This document shows positions 5,247 through 8,096 of a DNA stretch of 50,422 bases, one piece after another. Position 1 is the first letter of the stretch; each line of letters begins with the position of its first letter. Origin of the DNA: Lysobacterales bacterium (GTDB lineage Bacteria; Pseudomonadota; Gammaproteobacteria; Xanthomonadales; Marinicellaceae); assembly GCA_026982315.1 (NCBI GenBank), contig JALSHI010000054.1, forward strand, positions 1-50,422, in the 5' to 3' direction. A model generated the notes under the pieces. The model had not been told where the DNA came from, searched no databases, and was given only the letters and a program-made list of their open reading frames with translations. Made by a program: the position numbers and the translations under genes.

Positions 5247-5261
5247 TGGTTTCAAATGAAA
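5233..5261 (-). promoter_or_regulatory. Predicted hppD operon promoter
   Basis: On the minus strand TTTCAT (5261-5256) is followed after 17 bases by TAAAAT (5238-5233). The -35 box lies inside the 24-bp palindrome, so a bound regulator would block RNA polymerase. Confidence 0.5.
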
Positions 5262-5267
5262 CTAATT
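5244..5267. promoter_or_regulatory. MarR-type operator palindrome between hppD and its regulator
   Basis: A 24-bp inverted repeat has 11-nt arms (AATTGGTTTCA and TGAAACTAATT) around a central AA. The arms match at 10 of 11 positions. Size, symmetry and position, overlapping both divergent promoters, are typical of a winged-helix dimer site. Assignment to the adjacent MarR protein is inference. Confidence 0.7.
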
Positions 5268-5286: not shown

Positions 5287-5727
5287 ATGTCTTTTAACCT
5301 TAACACCTTCCTGCCCTACCGCTTGTCTGTGGTGGCCAATCGCATCAGTCAACAACTGGCCCAGGTTTACCAGAAGAATCACAACCTGGATATTCCCCAG
5401 TGGCGCGTGCTGGCCATTCTTGCCAATGGCCTGGATCGCATGACCGCTACGCAAGTGGCCCAGGCCGCCTCCATGGACAAGGTGAGAATCTCCCGCACCA
5501 TGGCGCGCTTGCGGCACAAAGGGCTGGTGGAAGAAAAAGCATGCCTGGATGATGGGCGAGCGCGGCGTTACCAGCTCACAGTTGCCGGTCGAGCCCTGTA
5601 TGATGCAGTGTTGCCGGCTGTCAGGACCTGTGAAAGCCGGCTGTTTTCCTGTTTTGATGCCGAAGAAACCCGGGAACTCCACCGTTTGCTGGACAAACTG
5701 TCTGCACATCTGGACTCGTGGCAATAA
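5287..5727 (+). CDS. MarR-family transcriptional regulator, probable regulator of tyrosine catabolism
   Basis: 146 aa from the ATG at 5287. A TTG seven codons upstream (5266) is an alternative, but it falls inside the palindrome and adds a poorly supported extension. Neither start has a strong Shine-Dalgarno. The winged helix-turn-helix is clear: IPQWRVLAILANG (helix 2), MTATQVAQAASMDKVRISRTMARL (helix-turn-helix) and GLVEEKACLDDGRARRYQLT (beta wing with the DxR motif). N- and C-terminal helices form the dimer region. It is divergent from hppD with a near-perfect palindrome over both promoters. It is most likely a repressor released by 4-hydroxyphenylpyruvate, homogentisate or a related aromatic. 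MarR-type control of this pathway is known in other proteobacteria; the ligand here is unknown. Confidence 0.85.
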   Translation: MSFNLNTFLPYRLSVVANRISQQLAQVYQKNHNLDIPQWRVLAILANGLDRMTATQVAQAASMDKVRISRTMARLRHKGLVEEKACLDDGRARRYQLTVAGRALYDAVLPAVRTCESRLFSCFDAEETRELHRLLDKLSAHLDSWQ

Positions 5728-5830: not shown

Positions 5831-5859
5831 TTTACATTCTGGCAGTATCTGGTTACACT
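5831..5859 (+). promoter_or_regulatory. Predicted promoter for the di-iron metallo-beta-lactamase-fold gene
   Basis: TTTACA (5831-5836), 17-base spacer, TACACT (5854-5859). This predicts a transcript starting near 5866 with a short leader. The gap 5728-5879 otherwise holds only AT-rich DNA with a T-run after the MarR gene and no convincing hairpin. Confidence 0.55.
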
Positions 5860-5888
5860 AAAGCGCCTGTTTAACATAAGTGAAAAAC

Positions 5889-6713
5889 ATGGACCCCAAG
5901 GAAAACTCCGCGCAAATCGTATTTTCTCGCCCGGGCCACAAGGTCATCGCCTTTACTGACCTGGTCGCCGGAGAGGGCGTACAGAGCAACCAGTTTCTGA
6001 TTGTTTCCGGTCAGGACAGCATTTTGCTGGACCCCGGTGGCGATCTCACCTATATCCCCTTGACCATGGCCATGTCCCGGTATCTGCCAGGCAAGTCCCT
6101 GGGAATGATATTTGCCAGCCATCAAGACCCTGATATCATCAGCGCCCTGGGTCGTTGGATGATGAATACGCCCGCCACCGTGGTCACCAGCCGCCTGTGG
6201 AGCCGTTTTTTGCCGCATCTGGTCAGCCAGTATGTTGGCAAACAGGTGGGCAAAATCAGCCAGCGCATGATCAGTGTCCCGGACCATGGCGGCCGACTGC
6301 CTTTTGGCGAAGGCGAACTGCTGGTGCTGCCCGCTCATTTCATGCACTCGGTGGGTAATTTGCAGATATATGACCCCCAAAGCAAAACCCTGTTTTCCGG
6401 GGATCTGGGCGCCAGCATGGTGGAGGCACCACCCGGACAAACTATGGATTTTGCCGATATGAAATCGCATATGCAGGGCTTTCACCGGCGTTACATCGGC
6501 AGCCGCCGTATTCTCGAACTCTGGGTCAATATGGTGCAGGTGCTGGATATTGAAACCATTATGCCGCAACACGGCCCGGCTATCCGTGGCGCAGACAACA
6601 TCCAGGCTTTCTTTGACTGGCTACGCCAGGAGCCCTGCGGCATTGACCTTATGGGCCAGGAGCATTACCAGGTGCCTCAGGAAAAGCTCAGCGTGCCTAC
6701 CACGCAAGCATAA
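5889..6713 (+). CDS. Oxygen-binding di-iron (ODP/flavodiiron-like) metallo-beta-lactamase-fold protein
   Basis: 274 aa from the ATG at 5889; a GTG three codons upstream (5880) is also possible. The metallo-beta-lactamase fold is shown by NQFLIVSGQDSILLDPGGD near the N-terminus and by metal-ligand motifs in order: SHQDPD (H78, D80, D82), PAHFMHS (H150/H153), SGDLGAS (D172) and MPQHGP (H228). The HxDxD pattern with carboxylates resembles the di-iron oxygen-reducing or oxygen-sensing domain of flavodiiron and ODP proteins rather than the HxHxDH motif of zinc hydrolases or persulfide dioxygenases. There is no flavodoxin or rubredoxin domain, so it would need an external electron donor or act as a sensor. 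It is cytosolic (no signal peptide). It lies 145 nt before two YeeE/YedE genes on the same strand. The fold is secure; the O2-related role is inference. Confidence 0.78.
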   Translation: MDPKENSAQIVFSRPGHKVIAFTDLVAGEGVQSNQFLIVSGQDSILLDPGGDLTYIPLTMAMSRYLPGKSLGMIFASHQDPDIISALGRWMMNTPATVVTSRLWSRFLPHLVSQYVGKQVGKISQRMISVPDHGGRLPFGEGELLVLPAHFMHSVGNLQIYDPQSKTLFSGDLGASMVEAPPGQTMDFADMKSHMQGFHRRYIGSRRILELWVNMVQVLDIETIMPQHGPAIRGADNIQAFFDWLRQEPCGIDLMGQEHYQVPQEKLSVPTTQA

Positions 6714-6715
6714 AT

Positions 6716-6744
6716 TTGCATTCCGACTTCCCCGGCGTTATATT
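6716..6744 (+). promoter_or_regulatory. Predicted strong promoter for the YeeE/YedE pair
   Basis: TTGCAT (6716-6721), 17-base spacer, TATATT (6739-6744), three bases after the preceding stop codon. The inferred start near 6751 leaves a leader of about 108 nt before the ATG at 6859, long enough for a regulatory site. The pair can therefore be transcribed independently of the di-iron gene. Confidence 0.6.
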
Positions 6745-6858
6745 AGGTGACGCTAAATCTGTGTCTGATCGCTGTTTTTCTGCTCGTTACCCAAACAAAA
6801 TAACTATCCACGGGCATAATCAGACGGTCATTTCAAGCTCATTCACTGGAGAACGATC

Positions 6859-7428
6859 ATGAATCAAACTTGGGGATGGCTCAAGAGCGGCGTTATCTTG
6901 GGTCTGGTATTTTTACTCGCGGCGGCGGTTGTCAAACCCATTGGGGTGTCAACCCAATATGTGATTGCCGACTGTCTGATTTTTTGCAATCTGAAGCCGG
7001 AATTGGCGCAAAAAGTGGTCCTGGAAGACGGGACAGTCGAATATCGCAGCACCAATCCCTACCTGAACAAAAGCAATGGTAAATATGTCAAGCTGGCTAA
7101 AGAGCCTGGCAACTACGGTTTTGTGTTTGTGATTGCCATGTTTATTGGTGGTTGGCTGGCGGCGAAATTTGGCGGGCCAAAAGTCCCCGAAGATGAAACC
7201 TGGATCCCTCGTGTCTGGCGGGAAAATCTTGGTCCATCATGGGGCAAGCGCATGATTGGTGCTTTCATATCAGGATTTGTCATTCTGTATGGCGCCCGCA
7301 TGGCCGGTGGTTGCACTTCCGGGCACATGATGAGCGGCATGATGCAAACGTCCTTGAGTGGCTATTTGTTTGCCGCCGGTGTATTTGCCGTCGCCGTCCC
7401 TGTCGCCATTCTCGTTTTCCGCAAGTAA
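6859..7428 (+). CDS. YeeE/YedE-family sulfur transport protein, first half-size subunit
   Basis: 189 aa integral membrane protein with about four to five hydrophobic segments (about 10-30, 87-104, 131-150, 167-187). It carries the family signature GGCTSGHMMSG with C152. In YeeE/YedE transporters such cysteines pass thiosulfate or another sulfur species through the membrane. A hydrophilic stretch (about 45-85) separates the first two segments. Start: ATG preceded by GGAGA. The stop is 10 nt before the next gene, which supplies the partner half with the CPG motif. The pair matches the split two-gene arrangement (about 150-200 aa each) common in proteobacteria rather than the single roughly 350-aa YeeE. 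The actual substrate (thiosulfate, sulfite or polysulfide) cannot be read from the sequence. Confidence 0.85.
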   Translation: MNQTWGWLKSGVILGLVFLLAAAVVKPIGVSTQYVIADCLIFCNLKPELAQKVVLEDGTVEYRSTNPYLNKSNGKYVKLAKEPGNYGFVFVIAMFIGGWLAAKFGGPKVPEDETWIPRVWRENLGPSWGKRMIGAFISGFVILYGARMAGGCTSGHMMSGMMQTSLSGYLFAAGVFAVAVPVAILVFRK

Positions 7429-7438
7429 GGAGCCTGTC

Positions 7439-8032
7439 ATGATTAAACAAATTGTTCTCGGACTGTTGCTCGGCGGCGCCTTTGGTTATGTTTTGCATAA
7501 AGTGCAAGCCACCGATCCCAACAAAATTGTCGGCTTTTTACGCCTGACCGACATGCACCTGGCCAAGGTCATTCTGTTTGCCATCGGTTTTTCCAGCCTG
7601 TTGCTGTTTATTGGCCTGGCCATTGGCCTGATTCCGCCCACACACATTCATGTCAAACCAAGCTATATTGGTGTGATTGTGGGTGGCGCCATTTTCGGCA
7701 TCGGTTTTGGCCTGGGCGGATATTGCCCGGGCACCACCATCGCCGCCTGGGGTGCTGGACGCCGTGACTCCATTTTTATGGTGCTCGGTGGCCTTGTGGG
7801 CGCTTGGGTGTTCGTTTTATCCTACGGTTGGTTGAAGGCTCATATGCCATGGCTATTTGAACCCGTGGTGGAAATCAACGGCACTGCGGCTGTTGCTTTG
7901 GCTGAAACCGGCAACCCGAAGTACCCGGCGATCATTGATGGGGTTCCCGGTATCGTGGTAGCTGGCATTATTGCCGTCATTTTCATGGCCGCTGCCTGGT
8001 TGATGCCGGACAGAATCCGCAAAATCGACTAA
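7439..8032 (+). CDS. YeeE/YedE-family sulfur transport protein, second half-size subunit
   Basis: 197 aa, five predicted membrane segments (about 2-18, 41-63, 76-96, 114-134, 170-188). It has the signature GLGGYCPGTTIAAWGAGRRD with C96, the counterpart of the GGCTSGH cysteine in the preceding protein. The start at 7439 is chosen because AAGGAG lies a few bases upstream; a longer open frame from 7358 would overlap the previous gene by 70 nt without a better ribosome site. The gene ends in a bidirectional terminator shared with dnaE. The paired halves probably form one channel-like transporter for reduced sulfur compounds. No rhodanese, sulfide:quinone reductase or ArsR-type regulator is adjacent, unlike the well-known sulfide-detoxification operons. 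Confidence 0.86.
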   Translation: MIKQIVLGLLLGGAFGYVLHKVQATDPNKIVGFLRLTDMHLAKVILFAIGFSSLLLFIGLAIGLIPPTHIHVKPSYIGVIVGGAIFGIGFGLGGYCPGTTIAAWGAGRRDSIFMVLGGLVGAWVFVLSYGWLKAHMPWLFEPVVEINGTAAVALAETGNPKYPAIIDGVPGIVVAGIIAVIFMAAAWLMPDRIRKID

Positions 8033-8053
8033 CCACAGACACCAGCAGAAAAC

Positions 8054-8081
8054 AAAAAAGCCGGGAAATCCCGGCTTTTTT
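8054..8081. terminator. Bidirectional Rho-independent terminator between the YeeE/YedE pair and dnaE
   Basis: The GCCGGGA stem with loop AAT closes on TCCCGGC, flanked by six A on the left and six T on the right. It works on both strands and serves the convergent genes ending at 8032 (+) and 8097 (-). Confidence 0.93.
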
Positions 8082-8096
8082 AGTGCTTACGTTGCC

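Follow-up and report, generated by a model that had tools for sequence, protein, structure and literature searches.

Does an oxygen-binding di-iron protein (ODP) encoded beside a split YeeE/YedE sulfur transporter regulate sulfur uptake, or are the two neighbours by position only? The question is raised by three genes at positions 5889-8032 of the window, by which we mean the whole 50,422-nucleotide stretch of DNA that was analysed. An ODP family gene (5889..6713, + strand; 274 aa), recognised by Pfam profile PF19583, sequence matches in the PDB, an AlphaFold2 model and its ligand columns, is followed on the same strand, after 145 bp, by a gene for the C-terminal half of a YeeE/YedE protein (6859..7428, + strand; 189 aa) and one for the N-terminal half (7439..8032, + strand; 197 aa). 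An earlier account, made from the letters of the DNA and hereafter called the sequence-only reading, had described the three genes as collinear and isolated between unrelated units, had predicted a promoter for each part, and had supposed an O2- or redox-linked control of reduced sulfur uptake while allowing that the link could be chance. Its description of the layout holds. All three genes lie on the + strand; to their left is a tyrosine-catabolism operon with a divergent MarR gene (hpd and hmgA were matched in Pfam), and to their right is a convergent dnaE, named from its open reading frame without a profile scan. The MarR-family regulator gene (5287..5727, + strand; PF12802, E 1.8e-10) is divergent from hpd, ends 161 bp ahead of the ODP gene and is a neighbour outside the unit. 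A terminator-like inverted repeat (8053..8082, no strand assigned, listed on the - strand) separates the YedE pair from dnaE.

Promoter-like sites precede both the ODP gene (5831..5859, + strand; TTTACA-17-TACACT) and the YedE pair (6715..6744, + strand; TTTGCA-18-TATATT, then AG), so that the sequence-only reading was right in giving each its own promoter. The promoter scan alone did no better than chance (4 sites against 2.4 +/- 1.8 in shuffles); the two sites are credible because they are conserved in relatives. The ODP site falls within a block, TGCGTAACATTTTTTTACATTC, that is identical in the window and in the related locus L004. Ahead of YedE, 11 loci of the family share an aligned TTGC followed by a TATATTAG-type box (TACATTAG in one), and this promoter is kept whether ODP (window, L004) or something else lies upstream. 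A scan of the window revealed nothing convincingly like a terminator in the gap from ODP to the YedE pair, and some read-through into YedE is therefore possible.

Conservation of the adjacency was assessed in two sets of ODP loci. The first held the best 80 of 88 relatives from a scan of genome contigs, mostly Marinobacter; the second held 60 regions from the same family, order or class, taken from the strongest matches at one region per genome and covering part of the listed matches only. The sets may overlap in species, a few genomes give two loci, and 110 of the 140 loci have at least 3 kb on both sides, the other 30 being shorter. A YedE half occurs near ODP in just one of the 140, L004, which belongs to the window's own genus and is the only case among the best 80 of 88 relatives; none of the remaining 139 has one. 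In the 60 further regions, no YedE half was detected by profiles made in this analysis, although at other loci these profiles do pick up distant pairs as well as full-length relatives. L004 is apparently identical with contig G002:C123, from a second species of the genus, the two having the same length (17809) and an identical matching stretch. The ODPs of the window and L004 are 70% identical, and both species keep the gene next to YedE.

The picture is the same when viewed from the transporter. Nine genomes of the same family outside the genus carry a YedE pair (G005, G007, G009, G011, G015, G019, G021, G023 and G025), and none has an ODP in the stretch examined; G015 and G019 do have a strong ODP match, but on another contig than the pair. 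In the third genome of the genus, G001, one contig reads hpd <- MarR -> YedEa-YedEb, with no ODP between. The distance from the MarR stop to YedEa is 213 bp there, compared with 1131 bp (window) and 1157 bp (L004), a difference of about the length of the ODP gene with its promoter. No ODP was found elsewhere in G001, a genome that is 87% complete. A plasmid search gave 9 records, all below 60% identity.

Within the genus, persistence of the arrangement carries little information. Eleven of the 12 window genes queried keep their order in G002 (lpxA falls outside the stretch examined), and as unrelated genes keep the same order, that of ODP and YedE represents local background and is no evidence of linkage. 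Divergence between the window and G002 is uneven: dN is 0.033 and 0.049 for the YedE halves and 0.24 for ODP, with 0.27 for MarR, 0.12 for dnaE and 0.09-0.21 for the tyrosine genes; dS is 0.9-2.4 for these genes. To judge from these rates, the ODP and YedE products do not seem to evolve under a common constraint, YedE changing slowly and ODP fast. Horizontal transfer of the YedE pair, considered on account of its 94% identity beside 70% for ODP, was rejected, as dS is high in YedE too (0.8-1.9) and only dN is low. In a set of 321 genomes from the class, a strong ODP match (best E under 1e-50) is present in 61 and a Sulf_transp match in 173; the latter is found in 41 of the 61 ODP genomes and 132 of the 260 others, slightly above independence (p 0.023 by Fisher's test, with no correction for genome size or kinship). 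Assuming single copies of both genes and 2000-3000 genes per genome, 0.03-0.04 next-gene adjacencies are expected in those 41 genomes. One lineage with the adjacency is thus unusual, yet it was singled out because of the adjacency.

These data bear directly on the proposal that ODP senses O2 or redox state and controls sulfur import by YedE, through transcription or contact. The shared strand, the short gap with no clear terminator, retention of the arrangement in L004/G002 and the weak co-occurrence speak for it; the lack of a clear terminator, the adjacency in two species and the co-occurrence also count against treating ODP as a stand-alone gene. Against control of sulfur import are the absence of YedE from the other 139 ODP loci, the absence of ODP from the stretch examined around YedE in all nine same-family genomes outside the genus, the ODP-free site in G001, the independence of the YedE promoter from the presence of ODP, and the equal persistence of unrelated gene order. 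On this balance control of sulfur import by ODP is very unlikely. A sulfur importer gated by oxygen would have been new, but comparison of genomes argues against one here, and we found no paper joining ODP with YeeE/YedE in the open-licence PMC literature. Of the sequence-only reading, the protein identification stands and the O2-linked control of sulfur uptake does not, its neighbourhood not being conserved beyond the genus; better supported is its own caveat of a chance link. The adjacency looks like a local coincidence within one genus and not like a sign of oxygen-controlled sulfur uptake. Very probably, the window encodes a stand-alone cytosolic ODP with its own promoter beside a separate PmpAB-like YedE unit, the two being neighbours because the ODP gene sits between MarR and YedE in two of the three genomes of the genus examined. 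The basis for this is the protein's family, fold and ligand positions, the neighbourhood counts, the conserved promoters and the ODP-free site.

A connection to the left was also weighed, namely that ODP is part of the tyrosine-catabolism unit and signals O2 or iron to that unit. Two enzymes of this pathway, HPPD and homogentisate dioxygenase, depend on both Fe(II) and O2; hpd and hmgA are both matched in the left-hand unit, and the ODP gene lies just downstream of the MarR gene that diverges from hpd. However, the 161 bp gap and ODP's own promoter set the gene apart, and hpd and MarR stand together without ODP in G001. Matches to the MarR profile are limited to loci of the window's genus, and ODPs elsewhere therefore lack this MarR neighbour. 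Nor is the perfect palindrome GTTTCA-AA-TGAAAC, found between hpd and the divergent MarR gene (5249-5262), repeated before ODP. Membership of ODP in the tyrosine unit is accordingly most improbable. The palindrome, which also occurs in L155, is likely the operator of the tyrosine-catabolism regulator. A co-regulating MarR site ahead of ODP or YedE was sought and none was found.

The YedE pair itself belongs to the Sulf_transp family. Both halves match PF04143 above the cut-off of 27 bits: the 189-aa product with E 6.4e-13 (49.4 bits, profile positions 175-306) and the 197-aa product with E 5.1e-13 (49.7 bits, positions 15-125). The C-terminal half, in the PmpA-like position, is thus encoded first and the N-terminal half, in the PmpB-like position, second. 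A study of the Serratia PmpA/PmpB system describes two chains, PmpB corresponding to the N-terminal and PmpA to the C-terminal half of YeeE (PMC11582611). The window pair has the same two-chain layout, and C96 of its N-terminal half aligns with C91 of S. thermophila YeeE (6leo alignment). PmpA and PmpB are chains of about 130 aa that carry one Cys each, at the positions of C91 and C293 in TsuA; the window pair agrees with them in order and at the C91 position and differs in length. The pair scores at most 38.6 bits with the TsuA thiosulfate transporter models NF052577 and NF041049 (cut-off 400), and an NCBIfam scan of ODP and both halves gave nothing over cut-off. Neighbours of the YedE pair in the family, scanned for a clue to substrate, have no connection with it (PEP carboxykinase, helicase, DNA polymerase, sugar-nucleotide genes). 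As a separate two-gene unit with a promoter of its own, the pair probably encodes an importer of PmpAB-like type, made of two chains and taking up thiosulfate or sulfane sulfur.

Two further arrangements of YeeE/YedE genes were seen in the family. A second, shorter pair in the window's genome (G000:C23, L157, 1434-3101) looks nearer to PmpAB in size and is preceded by a di-haem cytochrome-like gene, one with two CxxCH motifs. In L145-L147, L149-L151 and L153, two small genes (97-115 aa, hydrophobic; 148-154 aa) repeatedly precede the YedE pair; in L145 they have no Pfam match, and the gene pair is absent from that place in the window's genus.

The 274-aa protein is a typical representative of an established family, that of the oxygen-binding di-iron proteins. 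An alternative GTG start at 5880 would give 277 aa; alignment with L004 favours the ATG at 5889, the start adopted in the sequence-only reading. The ODP profile PF19583 matches with E 8.6e-65 (218.7 bits, cut-off 27.2) over all of its 194 positions, the generic Lactamase_B profile with E 1e-17, and no flavodoxin domain is matched in Pfam. A phmmer search against solved structures returned two ODP sequences, from Thermotoga maritima (6qrq, 3e-46) and Treponema denticola (6qnm, 7e-42). The AlphaFold2 model, built from 47 aligned sequences, has a mean pLDDT of 93 and a pTM of 0.90. In Foldseek, ten ODP chains rank first (E 6e-28 to 3e-23), followed by flavodiiron proteins from E 1e-13. A second structure alignment gave Z 31.4-34.8 to ODPs (the best, 34.8, to 6qwo), 23.3-26.6 to flavodiiron proteins and below 20 to lactamases among the matches listed. 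Profile, solved structures and fold thus agree with the ODP-type di-iron site without flavodoxin that had been proposed.

The motifs SHQDPD, SGDLG and MPQHGP on which that proposal was based are all present, as are the ligand motifs of the family, HxDxD, H (HSxGN), SGD and a Q beside the last His (PQHG). Every di-iron ligand position is intact; counted from ATG 5889, these are H78, D80, D82, H153, D172, Q227 and H228. In an alignment of 141 sequences (the 140 loci and the window), numbered from GTG 5880 and hence to be reduced by 3 for the ATG, H81, D83, D85 and H156 are invariant (141 of 141), as are D175, Q230 and H231 wherever a residue is present (140 of 140); H153 is shared by 140 of 141. 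PMC7785958 describes the Gln beside the last His as the unusual ligand of the T. maritima ODP. M191 (ATG numbering), at a position that is His in 132 of 140 homologues, was dropped as a sign of altered function, the position not being a ligand; L004 and six other homologues also lack His there.

That the protein is instead a persulfide dioxygenase or glyoxalase-type hydrolase of a classical sulfide operon, with which it has the metallo-beta-lactamase fold (Lactamase_B) in common, is scarcely credible and was rejected on profiles and fold, since the ODP profile is far stronger, neither family is among its Pfam or NCBIfam matches, the second position of motif 2 is D and a Q adjoins the last His, both as in ODP, and its closest structures are ODPs, then flavodiiron proteins. 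Persulfide dioxygenase and glyoxalase II are also absent among the VIA-align matches listed, an absence that proves nothing. In the bigR/blh sulfide operon of Xylella and Agrobacterium, YeeE/YedE-type genes do lie near a gene of metallo-beta-lactamase fold. There the set comprises Blh and an ArsR regulator; a persulfide dioxygenase-type protein with ArsR beside YeeE/YedE is absent at the window, which has ODP, a MarR divergent from hpd, and separate promoters.

The ODPs of T. maritima and T. denticola (6qrq/6qwo and 6qnm/6r9n; TDE2498) have the same fold as the window protein along almost the entire chain (Z 31-35, 35-37% identity), the same motifs HQDPD, SGDxG and PQHG, and likewise no flavodoxin domain. 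Flavodiiron proteins (ROO, FprA, FlRd) share the di-iron metallo-beta-lactamase core (Z 23-27) at 14-18% identity and, unlike the window protein, have a C-terminal flavodoxin domain. They have E in motif 2 where the window ODP has D.

In T. denticola, ODP and the small chemoreceptor TDE2496 are genetically coupled (PMC7666581). No chemoreceptor gene adjoins the window ODP. A small chemoreceptor-like gene lies directly beside ODP in 15 of the 60 gammaproteobacterial regions, together with a CheR-like gene in 4 of the 15 (CheR by Pfam in two). The naming of these chemoreceptors is softer than our other identifications: the Pfam match is weak (E 7e-8, below cut-off, in one of six such genes scanned), and the calls were extended by an iterated profile. 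All 15 linked ODPs fall in one clade (support 100/99), whose arrangement resembles the T. denticola coupling. The window ODP and its sister L004 (support 100/100) belong to the other major clade, without a chemoreceptor partner; the two groups meet on long branches, which drew a program warning, and the join between them is uncertain. The partnerless clade spans many gammaproteobacteria (Marinobacter, Lysobacteraceae, Acinetobacter and the window's family), and every iron ligand is kept. Gammaproteobacterial ODPs thus divide cleanly into two clades, one linked to chemoreceptors and a larger one that is partnerless and includes the window protein; this division is the part of the analysis likely to be of use.

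No demonstrated function for the partnerless clade was found in the open-licence PMC literature. In the window's genome MCP-signal is matched once, by an open frame of 674 aa, and GGDEF nine times, in every case on a contig other than the window's. Tentatively, and with the doubt the suggestion deserves, members of the partnerless clade may be non-chemotactic di-iron sensors of O2/Fe(II), or O2-consuming enzymes, with partners in trans such as the single chemoreceptor or the nine GGDEF proteins. The window ODP, transcribed from its own promoter, would bind two metal ions, presumably iron rather than zinc, through the seven ligands named above; the ferrous di-iron site would react with O2 to give a peroxy species, and the protein would signal Fe(II)/O2 status to a partner whose gene lies elsewhere in the genome.

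Other ODP neighbourhoods recur within the family. In 7 of 13 same-family genomes outside the genus, ODP follows a gene of 602-616 aa within 30-129 bp (L163, L164, L168, L170, L172, L173 and L174). The product is a Na+/H+ exchanger by Pfam in L164, and the six others are 71-93% identical to it. Some gammaproteobacteria carry tandem ODP duplicates (L212, also G270:C9 and G370:C178).
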